From Geosiphon pyriformis (lineage: Eukaryota > Glomeromycota > Glomeromycetes > Archaeosporales > Geosiphonaceae): DNA of 44,761 nt. The notes below the pieces were generated by a model. That model searched no databases. It saw only the letters and a list, made by a program, of their open reading frames with translations, and was not told the origin of the DNA. The translations under genes were made by a program, and so were the position numbers. The DNA lies in assembly GCA_016748015.1 (NCBI GenBank), contig JAAOMT010000283.1, positions 1-44,761 of the forward strand, written 5' to 3'. Positions 10,381 through 44,761 of the stretch are shown here, one piece after another; positions within the stretch are counted from its first letter, which is position 1, and every line of letters starts with the position of its first letter.

Positions 10381-11164
10381 TGTTACTTATAAAATATAGA
10401 AAGTATATTAGTATATAAATTAGCCAATCAGAGGTAGATATAGTAAATGTGAAATTCTAGGATTTCTCTCAAAGAAATTGCAGGATTCCAGGAATTGCAG
10501 AATTCCTGGTATAAAAAATTGAAGAATTAAGGAATCTTGATTATGTATATATAGCAGTAGTATTAGAAATAGAAAAAACAAATCTTTTAGTTTTAGATTT
10601 GATCTAAGCAATTTTTTTATTCAAAAATATCAATAAATAATTATTTGCTATCTCAATTTATTCTCCACTATTAACACTTTATGTTGATAGTAACTGATAC
10701 TTAACCACACTAAAACAATAACTCTTGATTACAGCTATTAATGAGATATTAACATTCATTGCTTTGGCTTATTTCTTTATTTTCTTTATTTTATTTCTCT
10801 TCTTTTATCATTTTTTGTTGTTACTAACTGATTAAGAATTAAGTGCTGAGTTATTAACATCATGAATAGCCTGGTAAAAAACCCAGAAATAAGAGTAATA
10901 TTATATATATATTAATGGATAGCTTACCAAAAGAGCACAAATGCCAGAATAAAACTGGTCACCAAGCTAAAAAAGAAATTAGATAGAATTGCGATTTTGG
11001 GAGACTACTGAAAACAACTATTGAATCTTTGTTCATTATATAAAAGACTCAACCAAAACCTTCAGACAACCAAAACCTTTAAATATCACCAACCATATCA
11101 ATTATTAAGCACTAAGTTACAGATTTGTTATTTATTCTACCCACCCAAATAATTACCTGTAACA
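10381..11164 (+). repeat. 5' LTR of element A
   Basis: 784 bp, starting TGTTACTTAT and ending CCTGTAACA. It pairs with 23369-24192. It has a TATA-like run (TATATATAG near 10550) and AATAAA-type signals (near 10632). It is 40 bp shorter than the 3' LTR because the palindromic GAATTCC-rich stretch near 10450-10515 is shorter. Confidence 0.85.
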
Positions 11165-13422: not shown

Positions 13423-13715
13423 TTATTCTCTCCTTTTAAGATTGAGCTCTGTTGAAATCAAAGTTAATTTCTTTATTGAATTCTAAGTTGCTATAATAGT
13501 TCAATACTATATTATTAACTTGTTGTAATTTTTGAAATTGTAAGTTGGTAAATTGTCTAATACTATTGATTGTTATTATGTTCATGGTTGGATCCAGTAA
13601 TACTTTGTAACAATTTCAAATGCTTTGAAAATTCTGTAAACTGCTTTTTGAATAGAATATAATGGTTTTTCCAATAAAACTTTCTAATTGTTGGATTGTT
13701 GCTTTGTCAAATACT
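13423..13715 (-). pseudogene. Element F: tail of the 3' ORF, out of frame after the deletion
   Basis: On the minus strand this matches the last 70-80 codons of the 3' ORF of element B (compare 40770-41038). Readable pieces are KAVYRIFKAF and the LPTYNFK region. It ends at the same GAGCTC-adjacent stop and polypurine tract. The deletion junction lies near 13712-13725, where gag sequence (NLGN) runs straight into this tail. The fusion frame stops a few codons later at 13684. Confidence 0.7.
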
Positions 13716-15740: not shown

Positions 15741-15767
15741 TTTTCTTTCTTCGTAGGGTTCACCAAA

Positions 15768-17336: not shown

Positions 17337-17830
17337 TTGGAAACAACTCCAAAGAAATTAATCAACAACAACATACCTCCAGCCACCATTACCAATAATA
17401 AATTGTTAGCAGTAATTTTTCTCTTTGACTTTGAGACACCAACAACAACACTTTTATTTAGTGAAGCCACTTTTAACACTAAACTTATTACTACAATATA
17501 CACTAATGCCAAGATTGATGACCATTCCATCAAACTGATTTTAAACAGTAGATCAGCTGGTAGTATCATCACAAAACAACTCATAGACCAATTAGGTTGC
17601 CAAGTTGATCACACTACCAGTACCAAAATTATTATAGCTGATAAAGCAATCAAAACTCTCATTAGTGAAATCGATAATTTATCTATCAAAGTCAATGGCA
17701 TCATTGTATCAATCAAAGTTTTGGTAATAGAAGCCACATAATACCAGGCTCTTATTGGTAATAACTGGCTATCCAAAACTAATGCTATACTCAATTGGAC
17801 CATGTAAAAGCTCTAGTTCAGTCAAAATAG
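17337..17830 (+). pseudogene. pol: Element A aspartic protease
   Basis: A retropepsin-like protease processes the polyprotein. The active-site box, expected as DSGSAGS, reads NSRSAGS: the catalytic Asp codon is Asn at 17544-17546 and the Gly is Arg. The flap and hydrophobic strands are recognisable: IITKQLIDQLGCQVDH, then IKVLVIEAT followed by a stop at 17739-17741, then YQALIGNNWLSKTNA. Both active-site changes are G to A. Followed by a PAMCKHF box that is PATCGHF in B and E. Confidence 0.75.
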
Positions 17831-18204
17831 ACAACATGTTTGAACACCAGCCATGTGTAAACATTTCAGAACTTCTTCAAAAAAAGAACAACCATTGATT
17901 AAACTAGATAAAGAAAAAAAAACCTACTTGGAAAGCCTATCAAGTTTCTTGGACTGATAAAAACCACAATAAGCTACCACCAATTTTGTCTTGTGAAGAT
18001 AAAGAGAAAGAAAAAAAAAAGATCTATCTAAAGAAAAGCCACAGAAAAAAATAGCTATCAAAGAAACTAGTGGCTGGAGAAGATTATATTTTACTAACAT
18101 CAGACCAAAACCACTATATATACTTCTTAAGTATAAAAACTACAAAAAGAAACTATTTTCCATGGGAGCATGGATCACACTTAACAAAAACCACTAAATG
18201 AGAA

Positions 18205-18780: not shown

Positions 18781-19004
18781 CGATCTCTGAAGAAAAGAAA
18801 CCAATCAGCAGCTGTGTATTAGAATCAAAATCAAATTTCAATTCTGATTCTAACTTTAACAATGACAATAACAATAACAACAGTTCCAGTTCTATTCAAT
18901 ATAACAACCAAAATAACAATGATTCAAACTCTAATTCAAACCCTGAACAATATATTGTACTTTCTAATCTTATTAAGGAGCAGAAACTGAAATAGTTCAG
19001 TGAT

Positions 19005-19412
19005 AATGATGAAGATATTATGCCAGAATGTGCACATGATACTAATGCTGAGTTTGATCTAAGATATTTAGAAAAAAATGCCATCAAATTGGAATTACAC
19101 TCACATACAAGCATTGATTTTAAAATAGCACTAGAAATCTCAGCAACAACAATGGTTCAACTAGCATCAAGAAATAGTCTAACAAAAAAAGAGATTAATA
19201 TAAAAAGAGAAATAATTGATACAGGATATGTAAGAAATATTATTGCAATGCTACAAAATGATTTAAAAAAAGCCTACATCATAGAGCCAAACAAAAAAAT
19301 AGCACAGACAATATTTTTGTCTTTGGTTAAAATAGCTCAGTTAGTATTAGTAAGAAACCAGAAAAAATTAGGGATTATAGCTAAAAGAATTAGTGGATTT
19401 GAATTAACAGGG
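19005..19412 (+). pseudogene. Element A dUTPase domain
   Basis: dUTPase hydrolyses dUTP to dUMP and keeps uracil out of DNA made by the element's reverse transcriptase. All five trimeric-dUTPase motifs can be followed. Motif 1 is AEFDL (usually AGFDL). Motif 2 is ASRNSLTKK (usually RSSLA). Motif 3 is REIIDTGYVRN (usually GVIDxGYxG). Motif 4 is KKIAQTIFL. Motif 5 is SGFELTG (usually GFGSTG). The frame is open from 19020 to 19826, but the Gly to Glu and Arg changes would inactivate it. The segment after 19412 is a linker also seen in B, with an IPEGTNIGYL box typical of the region before gypsy reverse transcriptases. Confidence 0.8.
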
Positions 19413-19849
19413 AGAATAAAGATACCAGTTAACATGGCAGAGGAAGAAATTTTTGACAAGAGAAAAATTATTTTCACCTGTCAAGCAATTTTTATTCCAT
19501 TATATAACAGACATATGTTAGCAATAGAAAGAAAAATGAAAGATCAAGCACAAATTTTTGAAGCAGAACCAACTATTTGTAAAGCAGAAAAGATTGAATT
19601 AATTAATCTATACATACCAACTAAAAACCACAGTTACATCAAAATTTCTATTTACAACAACACAGAAGATGTCATTGAGATACCAGAAGGAACCAACATT
19701 GGATATTTAACCACCAAAATCAAAAACCAACTACCAAACCCCATTTCAGATTTTTCACAACTGTGTAAATATGTGAATATCACATTACAAACAATATACA
19801 AACAAGAAAAATATTATTTGCTTTAACCAGAACAATTAGAACAAATAAA

Positions 19850-21244
19850 CATGGGAAACTTAAACTTACTTTAATGTATATAACTTAAAATGTTACTTAA
19901 CAACTTCACTAACATTTTTACAAGTGAAAATAAGTTTGGCAGAATTGACATAATCTAGCATCAAATTAAGACTGAAAATGCAATGCCAATCAAACAAAGA
20001 GCATACCAAATACCACCAGTCAATTATGAGATCATTTGTCAAAAAATCAATTAGATGTTTAACAATAAGCTAATTCAGTCATTAATAAGCCCATGGTCAT
20101 TACCAGTGGTATTAGTCTATAGAAAAAATGGAAAAATCCACTTTTGTGTGGATTACAGAAAACTTAATAGTATAACTTATAGAAACAGTTATCCAACTCC
20201 ACAAATTCAAGAATTATTCAATGCTTTCAGAAAAAAGAAATAGTTTTTGATATTAAATCTAGATAGTGGTTACTGACAAGTAGCCATGAATTCAGAAAAT
20301 AAGGAAAAGACAGCATTCATCACAAGAAAAGGGAATTTTGAATTTGAAGTAATGCTATTTGACTTAATCAACGCACCAGCCACATTTCAATGGCTAATAG
20401 AAATTGTTTATACTAAACTACTATGGAAATCAATAGTTGTGTATTTAAATAATACCAATGTGTTTTCAAAAACATTTGATGATCATTTTTATCATTTCCA
20501 GCAAGTGTTTGAAAGACTAAAAAGAGCAAGATTGAAATTAAACACAACCAAGTGTTTCTTTGGCAAGACAAAACTCAAGGTTTTAGGACATATTGTAAGC
20601 AAAGAGAATATTAAAACAAATCCAAATAAAATTGAAGTAATAAAGTCTTTTCCAGTATTCACCAACCTAACCAAATTATGAGCATTCTTGGAATTTACAG
20701 AGTACTATTGTTGCTTTATCAAAAACTTTTCCAAACTGGTTCAATCACTGCATTATCTACAAACCAAGAATTTTAAATATGAATGGACCAAAACACAACA
20801 AAAAGCTTTTGACATACTGAAAAGAAAGCTCATTCAAGCTCCAGTACTAATCTATTCAGATCATAGTAAACCATTCATTATTACCACCAATGTATCAAGT
20901 TAAGTATTAGGAGCAGTATTATCACAAAAAAAACCAGATGGAAGAAAACATCTAGTAGTATATGCCAGCCAAAACTTAATGCCAGCCAAAAAAAACTATG
21001 AAACACCAGCACTAAAATACTTAGCAATTTATTGGACAGTCATAAAATAGAAAGAATACTTAAACCAAAAATTTGAGATATATACTGATTACAAAAGATT
21101 GACTTCAATTCAAAAGCAAAAATTTGGAGACAATTAACATGCAAAATAAAAAATAGCACTTTCACTATATACTTTTACATTACACTATAAAAAAGAAAAA
21201 AAAAAAAGAAATACTGATAGTTTGTCACAAATGAAACAAATCTG
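19850..21244 (+). pseudogene. pol: Element A reverse transcriptase and RNase H
   Basis: The Ty3/gypsy order is clear: PVVLVYRKNGKIHFCVDYRK (20104-20163), motif A LNLDSGY near 20255 with its Asp kept, and INAPATFQW near 20365. The catalytic box at 20442-20453 reads YLNN where YLDD is expected; both Asp are lost by G to A. FLEFTEYYCCFIKNFSKL (20690-20740) marks the connection to RNase H. RNase H has TTNVSS where TDAS is expected. The frame stops at 21242-21244. Other stops lie near 20055, 20241, 20274, 20679 and 20901. Confidence 0.85.
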
Positions 21245-23368: not shown

Positions 23369-24192
23369 TATTATTTATAGAATATAAGAAGTATATTAGT
23401 ATATAAATTAGTCAATCAGAGGTAGATATAGTAAATGTAGAATTCCAGGATTTCTTTTAGAGAAATTACAGAATTCCAAAAATTTCAGAATTCTTGTATG
23501 AGAAATTGCAAAATTCTAGAAATTCCAGAATTTTTGGTGTAAAAAATTGAAGAATTAAGGAATCTCAATTATGTATATATAGCAATAGTATTAGAAGTAG
23601 AAAAAACAGATCTCTTAGTTTTAGATTTAATCTAAGCAATCTTTTTATTCAAAAATATTAATAAATAATTATTTGCTATCTTAATCCATTTTCTACTATT
23701 AACACTTTATGTTAATAGTAACTGATACTTAACTACACTGAAACAATAGCTCTTGATCATGGTTATTGACAGGATACTAACATTTATTGCCTTGGCTTAT
23801 TTTTTTATTTTATTTTTTTTATTTCTCTTCTTTTGTCATTTCTTGTTGTTACTAATTAATTAAAGATTAAGTACCAAGTTATTGATGTCATAGATAGCTT
23901 GGTAAAAGACCCAGAAATAAAGGTAACATTATATATATATTAATAGATAACTTACTTGAAGGGCATAAATATTAGAATAAAACTGGCCACCAAGCTAAGA
24001 AAGAAATTGGATGAAATTATAATTCTGGAAGGCTACTGAAAACAACTATTGAATCTCTGTTCATTATACAAAAGACTCAATCAAAACCTTCAGACAACCA
24101 AAACCTTCAGATATTACCAACCATATTAGCTATTGAGCACCAAGTTACAGATTTGTTATTTATTCCACCCACCCAAATAATCATCTGTAATA
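23369..24192 (+). repeat. 3' LTR of element A
   Basis: 824 bp, pairing with 10381-11164. Its ends have decayed by transitions: it starts TATTATTTAT where the 5' LTR has TGTTACTTAT, and ends CTGTAATA where the 5' LTR has CTGTAACA. Extra GAATTCC-type sequence near 23440-23545 accounts for the 40-bp size difference. Confidence 0.85.
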
Positions 24193-24704: not shown

Positions 24705-25990
24705 GTGTGAATATGATCTGGTATTTCTATTTTTTTGTTGCTTTTGTTGTATATATCATGTCTTTATATACTTTTTTGATTATTCAATTTAATGTGTTTG
24801 GTTTAATGATTATGATTGGTTTCAAATCTCATGGAATCTCATCTGGTTGGATTAATATTTGTTGTATTCCTAGTTGTAAAATATTATTGGTAGATGATAA
24901 TACTATATAATGATATAATTTCAGTCAATTACTATGTGCTGCTTTGGCTAAAATTTTGTTGTTCAATTTTAATTTATAAGCTCTATTTCTTAGACTTTCT
25001 TCTATGTGAAATGATCCATTTTATTTGGAGTCAAATTTTCCACTTCATTGTTTTTTCACTTTGGTACAATGTAAAAATACTTTGTCTTCTATCTTAAATT
25101 TAACTGGTTTATCTGGTAGTTAGTTATTGTGTCTTTCTTTTTGTTTTTCTTGTGACTTCTAAATGTTATTAGCTGCTCTTTGCTGTTTGTTTTCTAGTGT
25201 TTTTATTAAGTTTTATGTTTTTTTCAACAATGTTTCTTAAAAATTGTCTTCTGTTATTGGTTTAGTTAGATATGTGCTGACTTTTATCTCCACTAGTAAT
25301 GTTGTTGTTCTATCATATACTAATTCAAATAGTGTTGCTTGTGTAGTGTCTTGTTTTATTGTCTAATAAGCAAATAATACTAATAGTATAAACAAATTCT
25401 ATTTGTCTTGATTTTTTTGGCTGATTGTGGCAATTGTTTTACATAATATTCTATTGAATCTTTTAACTAAGCTATTGGTTTGTGAATGATATAGTAATAA
25501 TAATAGTCTTTTTATTCCAAATCTTTGACTTAATTTTGCTAATGTTCTATTCATAAAATGAGTTCTTTGGTCAAATAGTAATTTTTTTGTGCATCCATGT
25601 TAACAAATCAAATCTTGATAAACAAATTCAGTGATGAATTCTGTATCTGCTCTTTAAATGGCTTTTGCTTCTGGCCACTTAGTAAGATAATTTATGACTA
25701 TTGCAATATATTTGTTTCTTCTGCTGGTTATTGTTAATGGTTTAACTAAGTCAATTTCAATGTGATCAAATGGTTGTCTCACTTTGATTGGTCTTAGTGG
25801 CTTACTGGGTCTTGTTCCTTTTTTTTTCTGACAAGCATCACAATTTTGCACATATTTGATGATATTTGGATACATAGATGGCCAGTAGTATTTTTTTTTG
25901 ATTCTTTCTATTATTGCTTCTTTGTAAAAGTATTCTGCCATTGAATCTGAGTACATGTTAAACAGTATTGTCTTTTTTTCTGGCTTTGTG
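24705..25990 (-). pseudogene. pol: Element C integrase
   Basis: Minus strand. The open piece 25956-25654 covers the zinc part (EAIIERIKKKYYWPSMYPN and NCDACQKKKG) and the start of the core (EIDLVKPL, first Asp kept; YLTKWPEAKAI). LLFDQRTHF keeps the second Asp, and NSLVKRF shows Lys in place of the catalytic Glu, the same change as in A. A GPY-like C-terminal module lies near 25000-25100. Stops are frequent. Confidence 0.75.
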
Positions 25991-26229
25991 ATTATTCTGG
26001 TTGGTTAATTTGGATCTTTTTAATTTTTCCAGTAAAATATACTTTGATGATTGATAAAATATTTTGATTGTTGTTTTATGCTGTTTTGTTTTTTTTGAGA
26101 TAATTTTTTTTTAAACTGTTGAATATTTATATAATGCTGGAGTTGTTAGTATTTTTGTGTATTTATTTTTTTGTTATATTTTTGTGTTGCAATGTTTAGA
26201 TTTTGTTATATTTTTGGGTTAGAATGTTC

Positions 26230-27185
26230 AGATTTGTTTCATTTGTGACAAACTATCAGTATTTCCATTTTCTTTTTTTTTATAGTGTACAGTAAAAGTA
26301 TATGATAATAGTGTTATTTTTCATATTGCATGTTAATTGTCTCCAAATTTTTGTTTTTGTATTGAAGTCAATCCTTTATAATCAATGTGTACTTCAAATT
26401 TCTGACTTAAGTATTCCTTCCATTTTATAACAGCCCAATAAATTGCTAAGTGTTCTAGTGCTAGTGTCTTATAGTTTTTTCAGCTAATATTAAGTTTTAG
26501 CTGGCATATGCTACTGAATGTTTTCTTCTATCTGGATTTTTTTGTGATAGTATTGCTTCCAATACTTGACCTGATACATTAGTGGTAATAATGAATAGTT
26601 TACTATGATCTGAATAGATCAGTACTAAAGCTTGAATGAGCTTTCTTCTTAGTGTGTTAAAAGCTTCTTGTTGTGTTTTGGTCTATTTATATTTAATATT
26701 CTTGGTTTGTAGATAATATAGTAATTGAGCCAGTTTGGAAAAGTTCTTGATAAAGTGACAATAGTATTCTGTGAATTCTAAGAATACTTGTAACTTGGTC
26801 AAGTTGGTGAGTACTGAAAACAATTTTACTACTTCAATTTTATCTGAATCTGTTTTAATATTCTTTTTGTTTACAACATGTCCCAAAAACTTGAATTTTG
26901 TCTTGCCAAAGAAACACTTGGTTGCATTTAATTTTAATTCTGTTCTTCTCAGTCTTTTAAACACTTGCTAAAGATGATAAAAATAATCATCAAATGTTTT
27001 TGAAAACATATTGGTATTGTCTAAATATATGACTACTAATTTTTATAGCAATTTGATGTAAATAATTTCCATTAGCCATTGGAATGTTGCTGGTACATTA
27101 GTTAAGCCAAATGGCATTAATTCAAATTCAAAATTCTCTTTTTTTGTAATAAATGTTGTTTTCTCTTTATCTTCTGAATTCATGA
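26230..27185 (-). pseudogene. pol: Element C reverse transcriptase (C-terminal part) and RNase H
   Basis: Minus strand. It begins at the junction 27185 in the middle of the reverse transcriptase (MNSEDKEKTTFITKKENF) and continues to LMPFGLTNVPATFQW. The catalytic box at 27016-27027 is YLDN, one Asp lost. An open piece (26964-26683) has KFLGHVVNKKNIK and FLEFTEYYCHFIKNFSKL. RNase H follows with TTNVSG where TDASG is expected. The N-terminal half of the gene is missing because element D/E was inserted at 27186. Confidence 0.8.
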
Positions 27186-29009: not shown

Positions 29010-30240
29010 ATTTTCCAATTAAATAGTCGCATATTATTTTTATGTTTTGATGATAATAATTGATTCCAGATCTCATGGTATATTTTCTGGTCTGATTAAT
29101 GGAATTTGTGTTCCTAACTAAGGTACTGATGACAATAACTGCTGTTTTGCATGATAAATTTTCAATCAGTTCTTATGAGCTACTTTCTTTAGAATCTTGT
29201 TTTCCAATCGTAATTTGTAAGCTTTATTTCCTAAAGCTTTGTGTATGTGGAATGAACTGTTCCACTTTGGGTCAAACTTTTCACTTTACTGTTTCTTAGC
29301 TTTTGTATGGTGTAATAGTACTTGGTCTCTAATCTTGAATTTCATTGGTTGTTCAGGCAGGCAATTGTCATGTCTTTCCTTTTGCCATTTTTGAGCATTA
29401 CTAATATTATCAGCTGCTGTTCTTCGGTTGTTTTCAAACATTTCCATTAGCTAGTACATTCTTTGGTGTAAGGTAGCTTCAAAATTCTCTTTGGTAATTG
29501 TTTCTATTGGGTAGGACAATATTTCTTGTTTTATAGGTAACGTAGCTTTTCTTCCATAGATTAATTCAAATGGTGTGAATTGTGTCATATTTTGCTTTAG
29601 TATTCAGTATGCAAAGAGTACTAAAGGTATGAATAAGTCTCATTCTTGTTCATTTTCTTGACTTATTTTTGCTAGTGCTTTACACAGTGTTTGGTTAAAT
29701 CTTTCTACCAGTCTGTTTGTTTGTGGATGGTATAGTGACAATAAAGAATGTTTTATACCAAACTGTTGGCTTAGTTTAGTTAGTGTATTATTAACAAAAT
29801 GTGTTCTTTGATTAGATAATAATTTTTTTGGGTATCCATGTCGGCAAATTAGGTCTTGATGCACAAATTTGGCTACTGTTTTGGCATTGGCCACTTGGAT
29901 TGCTCTGGCTTTTGGCCATTTTGTAAGATAGTCTACTGCTACTGTGATGTAACAATTTTCTTTGGATGTTATGGAGAGAGGACCAACCAAATCAATCCCA
30001 ATTCTATCAAATAGATTTTCAACTGGAATGGGTTGAAATGGTTCCATTATTCTGGCTCCTCTTTTTTATTGGCATGAGTCACAATTGAGAACATATTCGA
30101 AGATATTCTTATATATCATAGGCCAATAGTATAGATTTGTTGTTCTTTCCAGAGTTGTATCTTTGTTGAAGTGTCCTAAAGTTGGGTCGGAGTGCATACT
30201 ATATAATATAGCTTTTTTTTCACTGTTCTTAATCAATCAT
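29010..30240 (-). pseudogene. pol: Element D integrase
   Basis: Minus strand. The zinc part lies near 30060-30200 (GHFNKDTTLERT, then NCDSCQ). The open piece 30047-29640 is the catalytic core: GIDLVGPLSITS (first Asp kept), LLSNQRTHFVNN (second Asp changed to Asn) and NRLVERFNQTLC (Glu kept). Downstream, FELIYGRKATLP and a GPY-type module (NKAYKLRLENKIL near 29210) complete the domain. Few stops interrupt the core. Confidence 0.85.
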
Positions 30241-30399: not shown

Positions 30400-31214
30400 G
30401 TGTTCATGGGTCCGAGATTAGGTTTGTGGCATTCTCGACAAATTGTTAGCATTGGTGTTTTTGGATTCTTCCTTGTAATAAACTTTGAGTGAGAATTGTT
30501 GTAAATAAGTACTCCATCTTGCATATTTCTCTTCTAGCTGTGGATTGTTGAGTAACCAAATAAGTCCTTTGTAGTTAGTATATAGGTTAAATAGTTGACC
30601 AAGGTAATGTTTTCACATCTGTACTGCTCAATAGATGGCGAGACATTCCAAATTGGTTGTGCTGTAATTTTTTTCCACTAAACTAGTGCTGTGACTGGCA
30701 TAGGCAATTGGATGTTCTCTATTGTCTGGTTCTATCTGTGATAAGATTGCTCCTAGAGCATTTTTCAAGGTGTTTGTAGTGACAATGAATCGTTTAATGA
30801 AGTCTGGATAGATCAATATGGGGGAGGTGATTAATTGTTGCTTAAGATAGTTGAATATTTTCTGTTGATCTTCTTTCCACAGATACAGTATGTATTTGGA
30901 CAACAAGTGATGAAGTGGTTTTGTAATAGTTGAGAAACCTTTGACAAATTGACAATAGTATTCTGCCAATCCTAGAAATTCTTGTAATTCTCTGAGGTTA
31001 ATTGGGGCTGGAAAATCTTTAACTTTCTGGACCTTGTCCAAGTTAGGTTTGACTTTGTCTTTGCTGATTATGTGTCCTAGGAATTTCAACTCGGTTTTTT
31101 CAAAGAAACATTTCTCAGGATTGAGTTTTAATTCAGCACTACAAAGACGTTTGAAAACTTGTTAAAGATGGAGTAAATAATTATCAAACGTTTCAGAGAA
31201 GACATTGGTGTTAT
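30400..31214 (-). pseudogene. pol: Element D reverse transcriptase (C-terminal part) and RNase H
   Basis: Minus strand. It starts right at the element B insertion with NTNVFS, then KCFFEKTELKFLGHIISKDK and FLGLAEYYCQFVKGFSTI (open piece 31089-30628). RNase H follows with TTNTLKNALGAILSQ, where the first Asp is Asn. It runs on to an SRMPQT-type end near 30420. The other half of this gene is at 41902-42560. Confidence 0.85.
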
Positions 31215-32063
31215 TGTTACAGTTTAAGAATTTAGCAAAAGAATCATAAAAATAATATAAACTATTCAATCATAATATAGCACAGTAATAATCTTAAAAA
31301 AGTAATGATTAACATAGTAGCAAATACCATCTTGCAATAGTGGCAAGCACCAGTTCACAATAGCAGTCAATACCAACTGGTAATAGCAGCAAACATCAGG
31401 TTGAAATATCAAAAAGAAAGTATTACAATGTGTTTTCTCATAGAACTACAAATATGTATATATATAGTAGCTTTAATATTGAGAAAAGTCAATCAAGTAA
31501 TAAAAATCATAACTTATCAAGCAATAGATCCAATTTATCCAACAAACTCCACTTTAAAATTGTACTTTTAAATCAAAAAAAAATAAAAAAGAATATTTAA
31601 AACTGAATTATCACAATCCCAAAATAGTAAGAAACTCACTTGTATTATTTATTAAATGAAATTATTATTCATCAGCTGAATTCCTTGAAAGAATAATCCC
31701 TAATTAAGATTATTCACGTTGTTACTAATTGATAAAAGCTTATTGTGAGAATTAGGAAAAGCGCCAAAGGCCATTAACATTCTGTGTTTCTAGATTAGAG
31801 AAACACATTAGGCAATTGCAAGAATAGCCTCAGAGAAGACCCCAAACAGCGAGTAGATTTCAGCTCAGCCTCTGAGAAGGAATACATAAACACACACAAC
31901 AATCAGAAATTGAGAAATAACTTATATTGTGACATTAAAGAGAAAGCCTTCAGTATAACAGTGACATTATCACACAAATAGAATTGAGGAACTCACAAGA
32001 AACTGATTGCAATTAAAATGGGATATTAGCAATTAAATATACCAAAAAAACCATCCTGTAACA
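31215..32063 (+). repeat. 5' LTR of element B
   Basis: Starts TGTTACAGTTT and ends CTGTAACA. It has four 23-bp repeat units (31313-31404), a TATA-like run (TATATATATAG near 31447) and AATAAAAA near 31499. In the first 480 bases I aligned by eye with 41052-41901, I counted a little over 20 differences, all transitions. Confidence 0.9.
31313..31404 (+). repeat. 23-bp LTR repeat, four copies
   Basis: Units start at 31313, 31336, 31359 and 31382 (CATAG or AATAG at each start), exactly 23 bp apart. This is the complement of the array seen in element F. Confidence 0.75.
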
Positions 32064-32085
32064 TTTGGTGAACCCTATAAGGAAA
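32064..32085 (+). other. Primer binding site region of element B
   Basis: TTTGGTGAACCCTATAAGG follows the LTR. TGG begins two bases in. The same site in F reads TTTGGTGAACCCTACGAAG. A shares only TTTGGTG and a later TAAGG. The tRNA was not identified. Confidence 0.5.
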
Positions 32086-32142: not shown

Positions 32143-33543
32143 AAAGTGACGACAAAAATCTCTAACCTTATTGTTCTTGAATTCTGCCGTGCTATTTACA
32201 CACAAAATTAAAGTGATCTTGGATTACCAGAAGGATGTTGTCCAGCAGAATCTGCTCTTACTTATTATATCAATGCCAGAATAAATTATCATATAGGAAA
32301 AGAAGAAAAACCACATAATGCAAAACTTGGATTGTATAGAGAATTATCACAATACACTACAAAGAAAGTAGCAGTAATAGCTGCAACTATTGTCAAAATT
32401 CATTGAGAAATTGATCAATATGCCAACAAAAATTTTCCAATATCTACAGAAAATATTAGGGAATACACCAACAAAACAAAAGAAAATTTAGAAACTAATC
32501 AGAAAAGTAACCAGCAAAAACTAGGAACACCTGCTCAAACACCAAAGAAAACTGTCACTCAATCAATAAAGAAACAATGTATTTATTCACCAGAAAATAA
32601 ATCATACCATTTTTCACCAGAAAATAAGATACAAATTTCATTAGGAGCTGCATCATCATTAACATCAACTTCACAAATGCCAAGAACTCCTAGTTATACT
32701 GATAAAATTAAACAACATAACTGGGGAGACATACCAATTACAGGAGGATATTTATTGCTATTCCAAAACTCTTTTTTTCAGTCAAAATTCGGAACAGAGT
32801 TTGAAAACCATGAAGAGGAGTTTGAATTAGAATCCAAAAAAGAGACCAGTGAAAAAACAATCACAAGACCAGTTATTGGAACAAGCAGCCAGTCCAGAAA
32901 TCAAGAAACTCATGATCAAGAGAAAGAACCAAATATAAGAGAAGCCACCTTTAGGAATGCTCAAGGAAATATCATCCCACCTCCTCTTAGACCAATAAGC
33001 CCACCAGCAGAAAATGGCAACAAAATGACCACATCATACATCGCAAGACTAACAAATTTCTCAGGAGAGGAAGAAAAAACAGACGTGCACATGTGGCTCA
33101 GAAAAGCGCAAAAAGCCATCCAGGCAAATAACTGGAATGACCAAAAAGCAATTCAAATATTACCTTTCTTTCTGAAAGGCACAGCTGACTCGTGGTATTA
33201 AAGCCTGGAAACAAAACCCATGAGCTTCACTGAATTTAAAAATGCACTTCTGAAGTATTTTAGTGACCTAAACGCTGTAATCCAACTACAAAACGAATTC
33301 AATACTATCAAGCAAGGTACTAATGAAACTGTCATCCAATACCTTGCTCGATTCAATCAAATTTGCCATTAAATTGAAATGATTGAACAAGAATACTACA
33401 CTGATCCTCAGGTTTTAAATCAGTTTATTAGAGGATTAAAAAGCAGCATTTTAGGAAGAGTATGCCCTGCCCACTCTAATTTCTTACCAGAAGCCATTAC
33501 ATTCACCAGAGCCCTTGAATCGGCTGAAAAAAAAGCTAATTAT
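32143..33543 (+). pseudogene. gag: Element B gag, first part
   Basis: Gag N-terminus and core. It is readable from about 32143 (ISNLIVLEFCRAIYTQN, then a stop). The open piece 32677-33201 has NWGDIPITGGYLLLFQNSFF, an acidic Glu/Ser-rich segment, NIREATFRNAQGN and KAQKAIQANNWNDQKAIQ. The Gag core continues to YYTDPQVLNQFIRGLKSSIL and RALESAEKKANY at 33543, where a solo LTR interrupts it. Stops lie near 33199 (Gln position) and 33370. The true start codon is unclear. Confidence 0.8.
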
Positions 33544-34556: not shown

Positions 34557-35240
34557 CTATAGTCAAATGGTTAACATAGTAATAGAAGAAAATAAGACAA
34601 AAACATTAAAGAAAAGAGTAATGCAATTAGAGGAGGAACTCTCTAAGAAAATAGAAAGTTATCTCATCCTGGATCCAAGAAGAAATACATACCAACCACC
34701 CCAAAGATGCAGCCAAAAAGTCAGTGACAGTCGAAATAATTGTTCATCGTGCCAGGAATTCAGAACAGAAATGTGTATCTACCATTTTTGCAAATGCGTA
34801 GGACATTTGATTAGTCAATATTGAATGCGAATGATACAGAAAGCATGCAAAAATAATTATTATGTGCCACTCCAAATGTCCAGAAACCAGTACATGTTAA
34901 TACCATACCAATATTCCACCATGTATCAAAATCAAAGAACTTACCAGCAACAGTCCATGATAGCCAACCTGAATTGGCATCCCAAGCCCTGAAATCAGCC
35001 CATGTGAAACCAGAATGCATTGGTTCAGAGGAATCCAAACTGCACTGGAACCAGTCAGCAAACCAATCCAAACTACCAAAATTATCAACAAACTTACCTT
35101 AATATACCAGAAAATTTGATTATTAGAAACAATGATAATAGAAACATAAACAGAACCAAAAATTTCTCCAACAAATTGAGCCAAACAATACCACCAGCAG
35201 TTGCTACTGAAGATAGCAGCCTCACAGCTATTTTTCCTTT
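34557..35240 (+). pseudogene. gag: Element B gag, second part with degenerate zinc knuckle
   Basis: Gag resumes with SQMVNIVIEENKTKTLKKRV (open piece 34567-34824, a likely coiled coil) and YQPPQRC. The knuckle reads YHFCKCVGHLISQY, so two of the CCHC Cys are Tyr. The Gln/Asn-rich tail includes YYVPLQMSRNQYM, then LVQRNPNC near 35020. It is collinear with the Gag of element F. Confidence 0.75.
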
Positions 35241-35685
35241 TGAATTAAAGAAAAACGAGACTATGTTCAGTAGAGCAGCATTGGATGAAAAATGCCCAAT
35301 TACTGCTATGTATATAGAAGCCACTGTAAACAATACTCCAATCAAACTTATTTTAAATAGTGGATCCGCTAGAAGCATCATAATGCTTCAACTAGTAAAC
35401 CAACTGGGTTTCAAAGTTGATCGTGCTGCAATGTCCTAAATCATAACAGCTGATAGAAGTACAAAACTGTCTCATGGCAAAATTGACTTATTCTCTTTCA
35501 AAATTAATGACATAGTAATACCTACAAAAGTATTAGTAATAGATACTACATAATATCAAGCATTAGTAAGGAATGACTGGCTAACAAAAGCCAATGCCAC
35601 CTTAGACTGGACCACCCAAGAGCTTCTGATCAATTATAATGGCCACCAGGTGAGAATTCCAGCCACCTGTGGCCACTTCTAAAAA
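35241..35685 (+). pseudogene. pol: Element B aspartic protease
   Basis: Retropepsin-like domain: ATVNNTPIKLILNSGSA, where the catalytic Asp is Asn (35356-35358), then LVNQLGFKVDRAAMS and a stop at 35437-35439. Next come IPTKVLVIDTT, a stop, and YQALVRNDWLTKANATLDW, followed by RIPATCGHF. Compared with A, the Gly of the active-site triad is kept. Confidence 0.75.
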
Positions 35686-35886
35686 CCCAGCACCAACCAA
35701 AGACCTACCTTCAAATTTGAGAAAAATCCAGTACTACCAGCTATTGAAACCTATCAGCTCTCTTGGGCTGATAACCAAAAAACAGGACTACCAGCTGTAC
35801 TAACGTGGATCAGCAAAGAAAGATCCGAATAAAATCAGGTAAGTCCACAAAAAAACTACTAGCAACACAGACCAAAGCTAGAATGC

Positions 35887-36570
35887 TTGGTTTGCAAGAA
35901 AAAACTCTCATCTATAATAGCATGCAGCACACTGGACGAAGACCCAAGAAATCCCACCCACTACTATTGTAACTGTTGTAACAAAGAAAAATACGGTTAC
36001 CCAGAAAGACATGGAAAATGGGACAAAAAACCATGCCTTGCTTGTGGAGAACCATTATCAAGAGGATATGACTGGAATGACATACCAGACAGAGGAAAAA
36101 CGTGTGATGCAACTTGCCAATACACAATTCTCATTTGTGACTGGGTAAAAGGAGAAATGCTGTTCAAAGCAGCATTCAATAGAGCATTAAAAAGACTACA
36201 GTACTATTCATATGACAAGGACGAGTTGTATAACACTGCACAGACCAAAGTAAGAGAAGGAACCGCCAAAGAAATACAACATTGGAAAGAGTCAGCTGAA
36301 GTAGCCGATGAAGTTGCCAGTTACAACATGTTTGATCCAGTGGACAAATTCCAGAACTACTACCAACAATTATGCCCCATTCGACAAGAGCAAGAACAAT
36401 ACCTCGCCCAAATCAACACTTACTTTTGCGAAAACTGTCTTATTTTGTGCCAAAATCAGTGCTGTGAAGAGTATCAAGACAAAAGGAACTTAGAAAAAAA
36501 AATAGGAATTGAGAATCAGCAGTCTCAAAATCAATATATAAATCAACAAGACTTATTTGATGGTCCTAAG
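35887..36570 (+). pseudogene. Element B Cys-rich domain, unknown
   Basis: The best copy, open from 35887 through to the dUTPase stop at 36799. Block 1 has YYCNCC, GKWDKKPCLACGEPL, YDWNDIPDRG, CDATCQYTILICDWV. Then come LYNTAQTKVREG, a helical stretch and NMFDPVDKFQNYYQQLCP. Block 2 (36424-36471) is CENCLILCQNQCCEEY. The Cys pairs suggest a zinc-binding fold. I know no family with this arrangement. The domain is about 230 residues, followed by a polar linker to the dUTPase. Confidence 0.65.
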
Positions 36571-36660
36571 TCAGAAAAATTTGTAGCCTATACCAACCTA
36601 GAACAAGTAATCAACATCCAATACTTTGACAACAGGCACTTAGGAATAATACTCGAAAGA

Positions 36661-37044
36661 GCCCATCCAACTGATGCTGAATTTGATCTACATTATTCAG
36701 AAGACAAATCCACAACATTATTACACAAAAGCATCACCAAAATCAATCTGAAAATAGTGGTTGAAATTCTGCCAGGAATAATGATTCAAATTGTGTCATG
36801 ATCAAGCCTCGCAAAAAAAGGAATAAGTATTCAAGGAGGAGTAATTGACTCCAAATACACTGGAAATTTGATGGTTTTGCTACAGAACAATTCAGAAAAG
36901 CCTTATACCATTGAATCTAAGAAAAAGATTGCACAAGCAATTTTCCTACCATTGGTAAAAATTGGGAAATTAGTGCTAGTGGAAAATTGTGAGGAATTGT
37001 TACAAACAACGAAAAAAACTTTTGGTTTCAGATCGACAGGAAAA
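36661..37044 (+). pseudogene. Element B dUTPase domain
   Basis: Five motifs in order. Motif 1 TDAEFDL (usual Gly is Glu). Motif 2 is a stop where the Arg should be (36799-36801, TGA), then SSLAKKGI. Motif 3 GVIDSKYTGNLMVLLQN is well kept. Motif 4 KKIAQAIFLPL. Motif 5 KKTFGFRSTGK (usual RGTFGFGSTG). The enzyme removes dUTP. A retroelement may carry it to limit uracil in its cDNA where host dNTP pools are unfavourable, which is inference. The stop and motif changes mean this copy is inactive. Confidence 0.85.
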
Positions 37045-37506
37045 AGAATTGAAACAAATTTTGCTAAAACAATAGAGGAAAAAGGCAAAGTAATTAAAAC
37101 TGAGCAGTCCATTATGCTCCTACCATATGAAAAATCAGAAATAAGAATAAAAAAGACAATTAAAAAAAAAGATCTAATATTTGAGCCCTACCCAAAAATT
37201 TGCCAACAGTTTTTCATAGAACTTACTAATCTTTTTATTCCAGCTGATAAAACTCAATGGATAAAAATTCCTATTGCAAACACCACAGAAGAATCCATCT
37301 ATATTCTAGAAGATACTATCATTGGATACCTCGGAACAGAACTAGAAAACGTGTCAATACCACAAGAAATTCTAAATTTCCCAGAAATTGCCCTCTATTG
37401 TGAACTTACTTCAATAAATTGGCAGCAACTGTTGGAATGTTATCAATTTATGCCAGAAAAATTGGCCAAATTAAACATTGGAACAATGGATCTTGACCAA
37501 CAGTGA
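37045..37506 (+). pseudogene. Element B linker between dUTPase and reverse transcriptase
   Basis: Open frame to the stop at 37504-37506. It contains DLIFEPYPKICQQFFIELTN, IKIPIANTTEESIYILED and TIIGYLGTELENVS. The N-x-T-x(3)-I-x-I and IGYL boxes are typical of the stretch before the reverse transcriptase in gypsy elements, whose own function is not clear. The same segment is in A (19413-19826) and E (42560-42920). Confidence 0.65.
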
Positions 37507-38874
37507 CAATTAAAAGCATTAATTTTAAAATACTCTGATATATTTTCACGAAATGGTGAATTTAAAAGAACCAACTTGGTTCAACACCAAATCCCCACTG
37601 GAGACGCCAGACCTAAAAAACAATGCGCTTACCATGTCCCACCAATGGAGCATAATTTTATCAGAGAAGAAGTCCAAAGCATGTTGGAAAAAGAAATAAT
37701 CCAACTATCAATGAGCCCATGATCCTTACTAGTTGTTTTAGTAAGAAAAAAGAATAAAAAAATTAGATTTTGCATCAACTATTGCAAACTAAACAGTAAA
37801 ACAACCAAAGACTCATATCTAATACTGTTAATTAACAAAATTTTCGACATTTTTAGAGGAGCAAAATGGTTTTCTACACTTGACTTGACCAGTGGGTACT
37901 GGCAAGTAGAAATGGACCCAAAAAACAGGCATAAAACAGCATTTACAACACAAAATGGCAATTATGAGTTCAATATAATGCCATTTGGATTGACAAACAC
38001 TTCTGCAACATTCCAAAGACTAATGGATGTAATTTACTCCAGAATCCTGTGGCAATCCATTGTTGTCTATTTGAATAATACAAATGTTTTCTCATTAAAA
38101 TTCATGGATCATCTCCAATATTTGCAACAAGTTTTTGAGAGATTAAGACATGTTAGACTTAAACTAAATCTAGAAAAATGTTTTTTTGGGAAAAATGAGC
38201 TAGCATTTTTAGGACATGTAGTTGGAAAAGATAGAATAAAACCAGATCTATCAAAAATAGACAAAGTGAAAAATTTTTCAGTACCTCGAAATGTTTTAGA
38301 AGTTAAAAGCTTTTTAAGACTCACATCTTACTACTGCTGCTTTGTAGAAAACTTTTCAAACATCGCCAAATCTTTTAATTACCTACTATCCAAAAATGTG
38401 AAATTTGAATGGACTAAAGCACAACAAAAAGCTTTTGAGTACCTTAGACAAAAGCTCATTGAATCACCAATAATGATCTATCCAAATTTCAACAAGAAAT
38501 TTATTTTGGCCACAAATGTCTCTGGAATTGGACTTGGAACCATTCTGTCACAAAAAGATGATAATAGAAGAGAACGTATAATCACTTATGTTAGCAGAAG
38601 TCTTAGTACAGTAGAGCAAAACTATGCAGTACACGAACTTGAATGCTTAGCAGTAGTCTGGAGTTGTGTTCACTTTAATACATATTTACAGTATCAACTC
38701 TTTGAGATTACCACAGATCATAGAGATTTGATCTGGTTAAATAACAAGAAAGTGCTAAAAAGAAAATACACCAGATGGTTACAAACGTTAGCACCATATG
38801 ATTATATTATCAAATACAAAGAAGATACCAAAAATGCTAATGCTGACTGTTTGTCAAGAATGAAACACACATAA
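37507..38874 (+). pseudogene. pol: Element B reverse transcriptase and RNase H
   Basis: YSDIFSRNGEFKRTN opens the domain near 37533. LVVLVRKKNKKIRFCINYCK follows a stop at 37720 (Trp expected). From 37885 to 38874 the frame is open for 329 codons: motif A TLDLTSGYWQVEMDP (Asp kept) and FNIMPFGLTNTSATFQRL. The catalytic box YLNN is at 38068-38079 in place of YLDD. FLGHVVGKDRIKPDLSK and RNase H follow: ATNVSGIGLG (first Asp lost), HELECLAVVW and TTDHRDLIW (kept), NADCLSRMKHT at the end. A long frame with both catalytic Asp changed is notable. Confidence 0.9.
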
Positions 38875-40327: not shown

Positions 40328-41038
40328 ATGCATGCAAAAGATTCCAAAATAGCAGTCAAAATTAAAACAATGATACTTATCCTAAAAAACATTAACAATA
40401 TAACTCAACAATTAGTTGAAAGCTTATAACAATTAAAATCCAATCTGGAAATCACAGTTAATAGCTCCAAAATAACATACATAAAAAGAACAATAGAAAA
40501 TCCAAAAACAAGAAAAAAACATAACTTTGAACCATATAATATTACCAAATATAACAACAAATTTATCAGCAAAGTTATTGAAAAATTAGAGATAACATTG
40601 GACAATACATTAATAATGGAAGAAATAAAAATAAGTGAATTAACACCAGACATATTTAGCAACTTGAAAACGAAATTTCCAATTAACTACTGTTATTATC
40701 AACTAGGAAAGTACTTGAACATACAAACATTATACTCAAAAGACTCAACTAGAGTATTTGACAAAACAACAATCCAACTATTAGAACTTTTTATTGGAAA
40801 AACCAACACTACATTCCATTCAAAAACAGTTTACAGAATTTTCAAAGCATTTAAAAACTGTCACAAACTATTGTTGGACCCAACCATGAACATAATAACA
40901 ACCAACAGTATTGGACGACTTACCAACTTGCAATTTCAAGAATTACAACAACAAATTAATAACACAGTATTGAACCACTATAGTAACTTAGAATTTAATG
41001 AAGAAATTAACTTCGATTTCAATGGAGCTCAATCTTGA
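40328..41038 (+). pseudogene. Element B 3' ORF, unknown protein of about 236 codons
   Basis: A separate frame after the integrase: ATG at 40328 (MHAKDSKIAVKIKTMILIL), one stop at 40427-40429, then open to TGA at 41036-41038. The last 146 codons (from 40598) are uninterrupted. Landmarks: KISELTPDIFSNLKTKFP, YCYYQLGKYLNIQTLY, VFDKTTIQLLELFIGK, VYRIFKAFKNCHKLLLDP, then IGRLTNLQFQELQQQI. It is charged and helical-looking, with no signal peptide, membrane segment or Cys pairs, so it is not env-like. The stop overlaps the polypurine tract. Counterparts exist in A, C, D and F. Function unknown. Confidence 0.75.
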
Positions 41039-41051
41039 AAGGAGGGGATAA
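41037..41051 (+). other. Polypurine tract of element B
   Basis: GAAAGGAGGGGATAA directly before the 3' LTR; primer for plus-strand DNA synthesis. This is the best-preserved tract in the window. The 3' ORF stop TGA ends inside it. Confidence 0.8.
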
Positions 41052-41901
41052 TGTTATGGTTTAAAAATTTAGCAAAAGAATCATAAAAATAATATAAACT
41101 ATTCAATCATAATATAGCACAGTAATAATCTTAAAAAGATAATGATTAACATAGTAGCAAACACCATCTCGCAATAGTGGCAAGCACCAGTTCACAATAG
41201 CAGCCAACACCAACTGGTGATAGCAGCAAACATTAGGTTGAAATATCAAAAAGAAAGTATTACAATGTGTTTTCTTGTAAAACTACAAACATGTATATAT
41301 ACAGTAGTTTTAATATTAAGAAAAGTTAATCAAGTAATAAAAATCATAACTTATTAAGCAATAGATCCAATTTATCCAACAAACTCTACTTTAAAATTGT
41401 ACTTTTAAATTAAAAAAAAATGAAAAAGAATATTTAAAACTGAATTATCACAACCCCAAAGTAGTAAGAAACTCACTTGTATTATTTATTGAATGAAACT
41501 ATTATTCATCAGCTGAATTTCTTGGAAGAATAATCTCTGATCAAGATTATTCACTTTGTTATTAATTGATAAAAGCTTTATTGTAAGAATTAGGAAAAGC
41601 GCCAAAGGCTATTAACATTTCGTGTTTCTAGATTAGAGAAACACATCAGACAATTGCAAGGATAGTCTCAGAGAAGACCTCAGACAGTGGGTAGATTTCA
41701 GCTCAGCCTCTGAGAAGGAGTACATAAACACACACAACAATCAGGAATTGAGAAATAACTTATATCACAACATTAAAGAGAAAGCCTTCAGTATAACAGT
41801 GACATTATCACACAAATAGAATTGAGAAACTCACGAGAGACTGATTGCAATTAAAATGGGATATCAGCAATTAAATATACCAAGAAAACCATTCCATAAC
41901 A
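41052..41901 (+). repeat. 3' LTR of element B
   Basis: 850 bp, TGTTATGGTTT to CCATAACA, pairing with 31215-32063. Differences that I aligned are transitions, including two in the first seven bases. It also has four 23-bp repeat units. Confidence 0.9.
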
Positions 41902-42560
41902 TCATCTAGATATACTATGACCAATTTCCATAGGATTCTCTTGTATATGACATCCATGAGGTGTTAGAACATGGCAGAAACATTACAGAGTCCAAAAGGC
42001 ATTACGTTAAACTCAAAGTTTCCATCTCGAGTGGTAAATGCTGTCTTTTTTTTGTCTCTGGGATTCATTTCAACTTGCCAATATTCACTAGTAAGATCTA
42101 GTAACGAGAATCATTTCTTTTTTCCTAAGTTGTCTAGAATTTCTTGGATGAGGGAAGTGGGATAGCTATCTCCTCAGGTAATGCTATTTAATTTCCAATA
42201 ATCCACACAGAATTGTACCTTTCCATTCTTCTTTGTAACTAAGACTACTGGAGAAGACCAAGGACTTAAAGATTCCTTGATTAAGCCATTATCAAGCATA
42301 TGTTGTACTTCTTGCTTGATTAAGTTGTTGCCTGATGGGGAAACTTGGTAAGCTTATTGTTTAATAGGTTGAGCATCTCTTGTGTCAATTTTGTGCTTCA
42401 CAATGTCCATACATCCGAACTCATTTTTGCTGGCAAAAATATTGGCATACTGATTCAAAAGGATTTTAAGTTGCATTTGCTGTAGAGTATTCAGATTTCC
42501 CAGGTTTAATTTGTTGATTTCCTTGGGCATAAACAGATAACTTTCTTTTGGCAGGTTCTT
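41902..42560 (-). pseudogene. pol: Element E reverse transcriptase (N-terminal part)
   Basis: Minus strand, the missing half of the D gene. IFASKNEFGCMDIVKHKID near 42430, SPWSSPVVLVTKKNGKVQFC near 42210-42265, motif A LLDLTSEYWQVEMNP (Asp kept), and FNVMPFGLCNVSAMF. VIVYLD ends at the B insertion: first Asp codon at 41904-41906, second Asp codon cut after its second base. So the host gene had an intact YLDD when B arrived. Stops at Trp and Gln positions interrupt the frame. Confidence 0.85.
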
Positions 42561-43310
42561 TACTTGTGAGGTAATGTCACAAAACAGAAATAATTGTGCA
42601 AAATCTGGAATAGACTGGGGTTTTTCCAGATTCTGAATATTTGCAGATATTGAACTGACAAGAATTCCTTCAGGAATCTTTATGACATCCTTGGTCAGAT
42701 TGTGAATGGAGATTTTGAAGTGTTTATGAGCCTTTGCTGATAGATATAAGTTAGCAATATCAGTTAGGGAACAAATTTCATGGTCAGCTTCAAATAATTA
42801 GTCTTGGTTTTTTCAATTCACTTTGAGAATATATTGTCAATAAGGAGGGATGGAAATGATGGTGTTGGTGTAGATAAGTTCTATCTAGTTACTGTTTTCC
42901 TCTGTGAAATTGACTGGTACGTTTCCTTTTCCACTTAATCCGAACTCATTGATTCTTTGGGCAGTGAGACCTAATTTTTTGTGAGTAGTAATCAGAGCTA
43001 ATTGTGGTATTTTTACTAGAGGCAGGAAGATAGCTTGGGCTATTTTGTTATGTGATTCTATTTTGTAAGACTTATCTGAATTGTTCTGTAGTATTACAAT
43101 GATATTTCTGGTATATCTGGCATCAATGATTCCTTCTTTTACATCAATTTTTTTTTTGCGAAGCTAGATCTAAATGCTACTTGTATCATAGTACTAACTG
43201 GAATTTCTAATGCTATTTTGAGATCTATGCTTACTAAAAAATGTGGGGCTATGACTAGGGGTGATTGTCCAGAATATTATAAATTGAAGCCAGTATTAGT
43301 ATTATGTGCT
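42561..43310 (-). pseudogene. Element E dUTPase domain and linker
   Basis: Minus strand. dUTPase about 43310-42925: AHNTNTGFNL (motif 1; Gly kept, Asp of FDL is Asn), QVAFRSSFAKKK (motif 2), GIIDARYTRNIIVILQN (motif 3), NKIAQAIFLPL (motif 4), NEFGLSGKG (motif 5). The linker to the reverse transcriptase follows with KISIHNLTKDVIKIPEGIL. This third copy comes from a different element, so the dUTPase is an ancestral component. Confidence 0.75.
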
Positions 43311-43345
43311 TTTTCAGGGCAGATTCCCTCATTATTATTGCTATA

Positions 43346-44140
43346 TTATTTCAATTCTAATTCTTTAGAGAGGTCGAGATATGCAAGGTACTGCTCTGTT
43401 TCAGTAGTCTTATTTGGCTCTTGAAATGGCATGTTCTTGACTATTAGCTCAGCTTCTTCCTCAGGTTTGAGTAGTTTGTCAATGAGGTATAATGTTCTTG
43501 ACAGTAGGTTGAACATAAGATTACATTCATCGCAGTACTGAAAATGGCAAGAGATTAGGCAATGATCACATAATTTCATGTTTAGGTCAGCCAATCTCTG
43601 TTTTTATTCTTCTCAAATAGGGGCCAATTCTTGGTATCAATTCTGAAATGTGTCTGGGTTATCAGTAAAAAAATTTTTGATGATATAATTGGATCCATTA
43701 TATTCAGGTACAAATAAATTTTTTTTGATGTCTTATATTTTGCTGTGTGTGGCACCTTTGGCTTTAGCACTTGCCATTCTCCATATTTCATGTTCATTGT
43801 GTGGGTACCTGTCCAATTGATTGAGTGTTCTTCTCCAAGCATCCTCAATCAGGGTTCCCTTTCATACCCAATCATTGATCAAGATGGTATATTGACACAC
43901 TTCATCATATGTCTCTCCTCTGCCAGGTATGTTATTCTAGAATCCTTTATCTGGCAGGATCTCGCCACAGGCAAGGCATGGCATATTGTCCCATTTGCCT
44001 TGTTATTTTGGTTGCCCAAATCTTTCTACCATGCAAGATTTACAGTAGTATTTAGTGGTGGTGAGCCATTTTTTGTCATCTCTAATACATGTGCCTATCG
44101 AAAATAGCTTCTTTCCACAATTAACACAGATTAGCTTTGG
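43346..44140 (-). pseudogene. Element E Cys-rich domain, unknown
   Basis: Minus strand. Block 1 (about 44085-43890): YYCKSC, QGKWDNMPCLACGEIL, a stop at the expected Trp, NNIPGRG, CQYTILINDWV. Block 2 in the open piece 43594-43346: CDHCLISC and CDECN. It follows the same Cys, GKW and CQY pattern as A and B. It is unrecognised and zinc binding is inferred. Confidence 0.65.
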
Positions 44141-44374
44141 AGTTTAATAAAATAGGTTTCTTTGATCACTAGTTGGATAGCTCCACAATAGAGGTTCTTT
44201 TTTAGCTCTTTTTTTTCCTTTTTCTTCCCAGGTTGGTGGTGGTGGTAACTCCGTTCAGAAGTTATCTGCCCAAGAAACTTGGTATGTCTCTATTATTGGT
44301 GGGGGGTTTGTTTCTTCGAATTCTATTAATGGCTGCTCAGAGTTTTAGATTTTGAAATGTCCACATGTAGCCGG
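44141..44374 (-). pseudogene. Element E segment after the protease
   Basis: Minus strand, starting at the LTR insertion with PATCGHFKI, a stop, then IETYQVSWAD. The same boxes follow the protease in B (35670-35770). The protease itself would lie beyond the inserted LTR, outside the window. Confidence 0.6.
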
Positions 44375-44761
44375 TGTTACAGTTTAAGAATTTAGCAAAA
44401 AGAATCATAAAAATAATACAAACTATTCAATCATAATATAGCACAGTAATAATCTTAGAAAGGTAATGATTAACATAGTAGCAAACACCATCTCGCGATA
44501 GTGGCAAGTACCAGTTCACAATAGCAGCCAACACCAACTGGTAATAGCAGCAAACACCAGGTTGAAATATCAAAAAGAAAGTATTTTCTCATAGAACTAC
44601 AAACATGTATATATACAGTAGTTTTAATATTGGGAAATAATTAATCAAGTAATAAAAATCATAACTTATCAAGCAATAGATCCAATTTTATCCAACAAAC
44701 TCCACTTTAAATCATACTTTCAAATTAAATATCCCAAGAAACCTTTAAAATCAAAAAGAAA
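44375..44761 (+). repeat. B-family LTR, truncated by the window edge
   Basis: Starts TGTTACAGTTT and follows 31215-31580 closely for about 340 bases, including four 23-bp repeat units and the TATA-like run. It lacks about 10 bases at 44582 relative to the 5' LTR of B, and differs near the end (from about 44710). The left flank is CCGG (44371-44374). Whether it is a solo LTR or the start of a full element cannot be seen. Confidence 0.8.

Follow-up and report, generated by a model that had tools for sequence, protein, structure and literature searches.

The stretch of DNA analysed here (the window) covers positions 1-44,761 of a contig of the glomeromycete fungus Geosiphon pyriformis (JAAOMT010000283.1, forward strand; C321:1-44761 in our numbering), taken from an assembly of 124.7 Mb in 406 contigs; repeats are reported to make up 64% of this genome (PMC9453076). 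It holds three retroelements, A, B and E, which we consider very probably to be decayed members of one Ty3/gypsy lineage with a dUTPase in Pol. The Pol order of this lineage is protease, Cys-rich spacer, dUTPase, a linker predicted to be dUTPase-like, reverse transcriptase (RT), RNase H and integrase. To judge from the comparison of sequences, the dUTPase descends within a single retroelement clade and did not come from the cellular gene of Geosiphon, and between subfamilies it was under purifying selection as strong as that acting on the RT.

The presence of the domain at the three places named by the first-pass annotation, which had been made from the letters of the window, was confirmed with the Pfam profile PF00692 (family cut-off, 22 bits), which shows homology to trimeric dUTPases. 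Matches above this cut-off were obtained in B (36802-37503; E-value 5.5e-15, 55.7 bits), in A (18996-19823; 3e-12, 46.9 bits) and, for the C-terminal part only, in E (42888-43163, minus strand; 2.9e-8, 34 bits), and a profile of element dUTPases run on all six frames found no other dUTPase site in the window. The statement that all five dUTPase motifs are present in the three copies proved too generous, each of them lacking at least one residue: in A, motif 2 reads RNS where RSS is expected and motif 5 is degraded, motif 1 of E is FNL in place of FDL, and in B an in-frame stop (36799-36801) lies within motif 2. The Asp and the Tyr of motif 3 are kept in all three. In structure prediction the element dUTPase domain adopts the dUTPase fold, and the dUTPases of feline immunodeficiency virus (FIV) and equine infectious anaemia virus (EIAV) are among its best fold matches.

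A position between protease and RT holds for A and B; for E, no protease was found in the window, in locus L041 or over the 8.2 kb that follow the window, of which about the first 1 kb was masked. The domain of E lies at 42927-43310, on the minus strand and split over two frames. That the elements are separate and diverged was borne out: the dUTPases of A and B are only 44% identical, and for this reason we treat A and B as separate families; B is inserted within E. Precisely, the RT of E can be read as far as YLD at 41902 and resumes beyond B, at 31208 and two reference residues further on, hence E is the older insertion. No perfect target-site duplication of B was found (flanks ATTGG and TCATC). 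E ends at 44374, ahead of its protease, where it abuts another B-type long terminal repeat (LTR) starting at 44375, as if it had been interrupted there a second time; this repeat (44375-44761) is the first LTR of a further B-type element that extends beyond the window end. In P0021, an E-type relative, the DSG motif of the protease is at residue 610 and the dUTPase follows at 932.

The assignment to Ty3/gypsy elements (Metaviridae) is based on Gag, protease, RT-RNase H and integrase found in this order and flanked by LTRs, an order assembled across the window and six loci elsewhere in the genome (L034, L035, L037, L038, L039 and L041), every domain being a Pfam match in no single copy. One frame of L035, 1307 residues long, contains protease (122-226), dUTPase (566-697; PF00692, 86.9 bits), RT (931-1090) and RNase H (1154-1283); a 1433-residue frame of L034 holds gag, protease and dUTPase together, whereas matches of integrase type were obtained in L039, in L041 and in the window itself. 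Comparison of LTR blocks (127-300 bases) gave identities of 97-98% in L033-L035, 96-99% in L037 and 85-93% in L036; L031 and L032 yielded no such blocks. When 395-398 columns were aligned, the two LTRs were 98.5% identical in L034 and 94.2% in L035. As regards the chromodomain at the integrase C-terminus that would mark a chromovirus, Pfam gave none in the one copy searched, either in L041:5859-6665 (E-value up to 0.01) or in 6303-6665 (up to 1); the match obtained was to SH3_Tf2-1. Between protease and dUTPase, at 35863-36200 of the window and also in other copies, there is a Cys-rich stretch with several CxxC pairs; the top Pfam match of the frame containing it (E-value 0.13) is located elsewhere in the frame.

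The window copies are part of a large population. In a search of the genome, all of the 150 places scored (of 3181 candidates) passed the PF00692 cut-off, so that at least 150 copies of the dUTPase domain are present. We also considered whether the dUTPase is general to the gypsy elements of Geosiphon, and this was rejected: among the 16 top entries of an RNase H search (150 of 4648 candidates scored), two places have a dUTPase upstream according to the search lists and 14 have none in the ~2.1 kb that precede the RNase H, 12 of these 14 showing a long RT match. The earlier view of the dUTPase as part of the element design therefore stands for one lineage, in which the domain forms one clade under purifying selection, and does not extend to all gypsy elements of the genome.

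The dUTPase tree had 35 rows. For the 16 Geosiphon element rows among them, 92 full-length domains were first reduced to 37 representatives, from which the rows were hand-picked. All element types of Geosiphon (A, B, E and a fourth, F) fall together with P0035, P0039 and P0042 in one clade (support 100/99.4), which is retained when the three longest rows are removed (100/99.8). Within it, the Geosiphon elements as a clade of their own have a support of 47/16 (p 0.57 in the tree without the long rows), and the joining of P0048 and P0105 to the element clade (85/73; p 0.54 in the second tree) is neither shown nor rejected. The RT tree agrees with this: a branch (97/92) sets off 21 dUTPase-bearing Geosiphon rows, and the 11 RTs of dUTPase-less loci form a group of their own (100/100). 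Neither of the two outcomes named beforehand as speaking against a shared element domain, that is, no significant profile match or a grouping of the three copies with different host genes, was seen: the profile matches are significant and the domains fall in a single retroelement clade to which the host gene does not belong. As a separate observation, the polyproteins P0106 and P0107 combine a dUTPase with PF07727, the Ty1/copia-type reverse transcriptase; their dUTPases group with cellular ones, so these captures are apparently separate.

In many of the less decayed copies the five motifs are present with their catalytic residues, and the active-site residues are kept in most of the 81 full-length copies tallied; in an alignment-based tally the Tyr of motif 3, the Gln of motif 4 and the Phe of motif 5 occur in 81/81. 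As a mechanism, we suggest that the dUTPase, once cleaved from Pol, would hydrolyse dUTP, yielding dUMP and pyrophosphate, inside the element particle or close to it. Reverse transcription could then proceed without uracil entering the cDNA in cells short of host dUTPase, as spores and resting hyphae may be, and the benefit would be expected to be large in a genome of 29% G+C with many T positions.

Three other accounts of the domain were weighed. That the elements recently took the dUTPase from their host, in one event or in several, has in its favour that Geosiphon does possess such a gene. The places scored in a first search with human dUTPase (150 of 2353 candidates) were at most 40% identical and, by their open frames, element copies, and this suggested loss of the host gene, with reliance on the elements; the idea was dropped once two exon-sized queries found the gene. 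It is intron-bearing (C262:402450-402754 and flanking exons), 61% identical to human dUTPase and, when spliced by eye from five exons, scores 200 bits against the Arabidopsis and 176 bits against the human enzyme. However, identity between it and the element domains is no more than 25-35% (in 37 representatives), and the whole element clade, P0035, P0039 and P0042 included, has a short insert separating motif 4 from motif 5 that is lacking in the host gene. The host gene groups with cellular dUTPases, and trees in which elements and host were forced together were rejected by the approximately unbiased (AU) test (p 8e-6 when all elements were joined to the host, 8e-7 when A was and 4e-45 when B was; 2e-4 for the elements-host grouping without the long rows), which leaves a host capture very improbable indeed. 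Hardly more credible, although by a little, is a dUTPase taken from a vertebrate-type retrovirus, either a betaretrovirus or a non-primate lentivirus. The position of the domain resembles some retroviral designs (see also PMC5408684), and the presence of FIV and EIAV among the best fold matches says nothing on descent; against it, a profile built from seven element dUTPases and four other dUTPases scores Entamoeba (125 bits), vaccinia (120) and human (116) dUTPases above those of FIV (85) and EIAV (80), so that these retroviral enzymes stand below the cellular ones (Mason-Pfizer monkey virus is likewise named as a retroviral comparison). Slightly less remote, and still very unlikely, is a relic without enzyme action that hitch-hikes with pol. 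A, B and E are all broken or devoid of some motif residues, and part of the other copies have lost motif residues too, nearly all by changes of the C to T or G to A type; this account has to face selection between subfamilies equal in strength to that on the RT, and the invariance of the three residues named above, even if their codons are less exposed to transition-type decay or would turn into stops.

Several points weigh against a single lineage with a selected, active dUTPase. In the RT tree, P0039 and P0042 form a pair (80/38) whose position relative to the dUTPase-less lineage is an open fork, so that the dUTPase may have been gained before the lineages split and lost later. The dUTPase tree had no retroviral row and eight other element rows without host assignment. 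Within families, the ratio of nonsynonymous to synonymous rates (dN/dS) is 0.38 (B) and 0.56 (F1) for the dUTPase and 0.37 (B) and 0.25 (F1) for the RT, higher values that are expected of decaying copies. In F1 the dS of the dUTPase is 0.088 vs 0.375 for the RT, a hint of recombination. The genome copies behind the dN/dS values, and some of those behind the residue tallies, were chosen by best dUTPase-family score, a choice that favours conservation and was not applied to the RT.

Between the dUTPase and the RT lies a conserved linker with a dN/dS of 0.10. Probably, although this is not proven, it represents another dUTPase domain, produced by duplication and now without catalytic function, whose role is that of a structural partner, either to the active domain or to the RT. 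In the structure models the linker takes a dUTPase fold, that of B being predicted through a sister copy, and the best Foldseek matches of the two-domain model are herpesvirus dUTPases, e.g. that of Epstein-Barr virus. Herpesvirus dUTPases have two dUTPase-type beta domains per chain, with one active site built from both. The Geosiphon arrangement differs from a shared active site of this kind in that the five motifs are all within the first domain and the second has no catalytic Asp: in the hhalign register, the Asp of motif 3 is aligned to a nearly invariant Pro and the Tyr, in A, to Asn, and the linker is without the dUTPase catalytic motifs. With the linker profile, no match beyond chance-level scores was found downstream of the dUTPase in P0035, P0039 and P0042. 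The fuller version of this reading, to which we would give slightly less than an even chance, is a tandem, formed within the lineage after a single capture, in which an active dUTPase is followed by a paralogous pseudo-dUTPase, the dead domain being kept by selection as a scaffold or regulator; it might, for instance, hold the dUTPase trimer on the particle or tie the dUTPase to the RT. The competing account, unlikely and yet to be taken seriously, is that the linker is an unrelated beta domain which AlphaFold modelled as a dUTPase through chance or through its neighbour. It would agree with the weak link at the sequence level (hhalign probability 3.6%, P 0.012; 1% in a smaller comparison), with an alignment of only 11 linker sequences, with a first model, led by the decayed A copy, in which the linker was unfolded (predicted local distance difference test, pLDDT, ~50 or lower), and with a Pfam dUTPase match in only 1 of the 11 linkers, at an E-value of 0.16.

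The copies have decayed in a distinctive manner. The LTR pairs of the window differ almost entirely by transitions, with ratios of transitions to transversions of 59:3 (B), 100:4 (A) and 75:3 (a minus-strand B-like copy, 12654-13422/15768-16605), that is, 234 against 10 in all three, and C/T and A/G changes are about equal in B and A. Outside the window the ratio is 6:0 for L034 and only 15:8 for L035. Between dUTPase copies it is 7395:126 in B (253 pairs, most often at CpG) and 1699:170 in F (60 pairs), the pairs being non-independent. The observed/expected CpG value is 0.91 around the host gene, but 0.45-0.65 at four loci of type B, 0.20 at L039 (type F) and 0.06-0.27 over those stretches of the window that belong to A, B and E. 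The excess of transitions together with the strong depletion of CpG in old copies fits methylation-linked decay, and the pattern as a whole fits a process acting on both strands that is either similar to repeat-induced point mutation (RIP) or linked to methylation. In PMC8647823, CG methylation is reported for Rhizophagus elements and RIP signatures are described as not detected in Gigaspora margarita.

The precedents are not only retroviral, as had been supposed: elements with a dUTPase are described both in fungi (PMC2864245) and in bdelloid rotifers (PMC5408684). Dutpase-bearing Gypsy elements are known from Postia, Phanerochaete and Tuber, and PosPlaTy3-5 of Postia placenta is, like the Geosiphon elements, a fungal Ty3/gypsy element with the domain between protease and RT (PMC2864245). 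As far as they can be compared by description, the Postia and Phanerochaete elements and Tmt1 of Tuber are discussed there as chromodomain elements in which the position of the dUTPase is variable and its sources apparently differ; the Geosiphon elements, unlike these, have a conserved second domain after the dUTPase and no chromodomain in the copy searched. Juno, Vesta and TelKA of bdelloid rotifers resemble them in carrying the dUTPase between protease and RT in several related families (PMC5408684); they differ, again by description, in their animal host, and Juno also in an extra zinc knuckle after the dUTPase. In Entomophthora muscae, PF00692 is reported as enriched alongside retroelement domains (PMC11105155). 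Among the other members of the dUTPase clade, Pfam gives protease, dUTPase and RT in P0042, protease and dUTPase in P0035, which ends early in the RT, and dUTPase and RT in P0039, which starts inside or after the protease. Among the literature matches listed, as far as their excerpts go, there is no report of a dUTPase in elements of Geosiphon or other Glomeromycota, nor of a dUTPase/pseudo-dUTPase tandem. The dUTPase in Ty3/gypsy elements was thus already known from a few fungi and rotifers, and what is new here is the tandem of dUTPase and linker.

The features of the three elements are collected in Table 1. B-type elements have an open reading frame (ORF) of ~200-250 residues between integrase and 3' LTR, without Pfam match, which occurs also in L034:829-1578 (minus strand). 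Other remains in the window are a B-like element nested inside A (12654-16605, minus), an A-like RT/integrase fragment (24747-27184, minus) and, at the left end (828-2767), decayed sequences related to P0038, a protein with gag, at 32-41% identity.

Table 1. Features of elements A, B and E in the window, with strand and supporting evidence
Feature	Position	Strand	Evidence
A 5' LTR	10383..11162	+	82% identical to 23371-24190
A 3' LTR	23371..24190	+	LTR pair comparison
A protease region, DSG reads NSR	17421..17858	+	tblastn with protease part of P0002, 46%
A dUTPase, open 276-residue frame	18972..19415	+	PF00692 3e-12; element-dUTPase profile 198 bits
A linker, same family as B linker	19413..19811	+	linker profile 164.7 bits (row itself in profile)
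A RT with stops	20070..20744	+	tblastn, 55%
B 5' LTR (TGTTAT...)	31209..32064	+	92.7% identical to 3' LTR
B gag region	32164..33543	+	tblastn with P0018, 78% identity
B protease region, DSG reads NSG	35206..35670	+	tblastn with protease part of P0002, 85%
B dUTPase domain, in-frame stop	36604..37044	+	PF00692 5.5e-15; element-dUTPase profile 194 bits
B linker, predicted degenerate second dUTPase fold	37039..37431	+	linker profile 189.9 bits (row itself in profile)
B RT and RNase H	37723..38871	+	RVT_1 1.2e-24, RT_RNaseH_2 4.2e-32
B ORF between integrase region and 3' LTR	40430..41035	+	no Pfam match
B 3' LTR (...ATAACA)	41046..41901	+	LTR pair comparison
E region from protease side up to dUTPase	43145..44374	-	tblastn with P0021 residues 683-987, P0034 719-899
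E dUTPase, two frame pieces	42927..43310	-	PF00692 2.9e-8 on 42888-43163
E linker	42549..42929	-	linker profile 70.5 bits
E RT, first part, cut at YLDD by B	41902..42506	-	
E RT remainder and RNase H, beyond B	30421..31208	-	
Integrase core, probably of E	29643..30065	-	PF00665 3.6e-9

In Geosiphon, a dUTPase is carried by a high-copy lineage of Glomeromycota elements that lives beside a dUTPase-less Ty3 lineage, in a host having its own enzyme. The two lineages side by side offer a natural comparison for when the exclusion of uracil pays for a retroelement. If the linker is indeed a pseudo-dUTPase, it would provide a testable case of a duplicated enzyme domain made into a structural part of a retroelement polyprotein, and such a pseudoenzyme partner would be new to retroelements.
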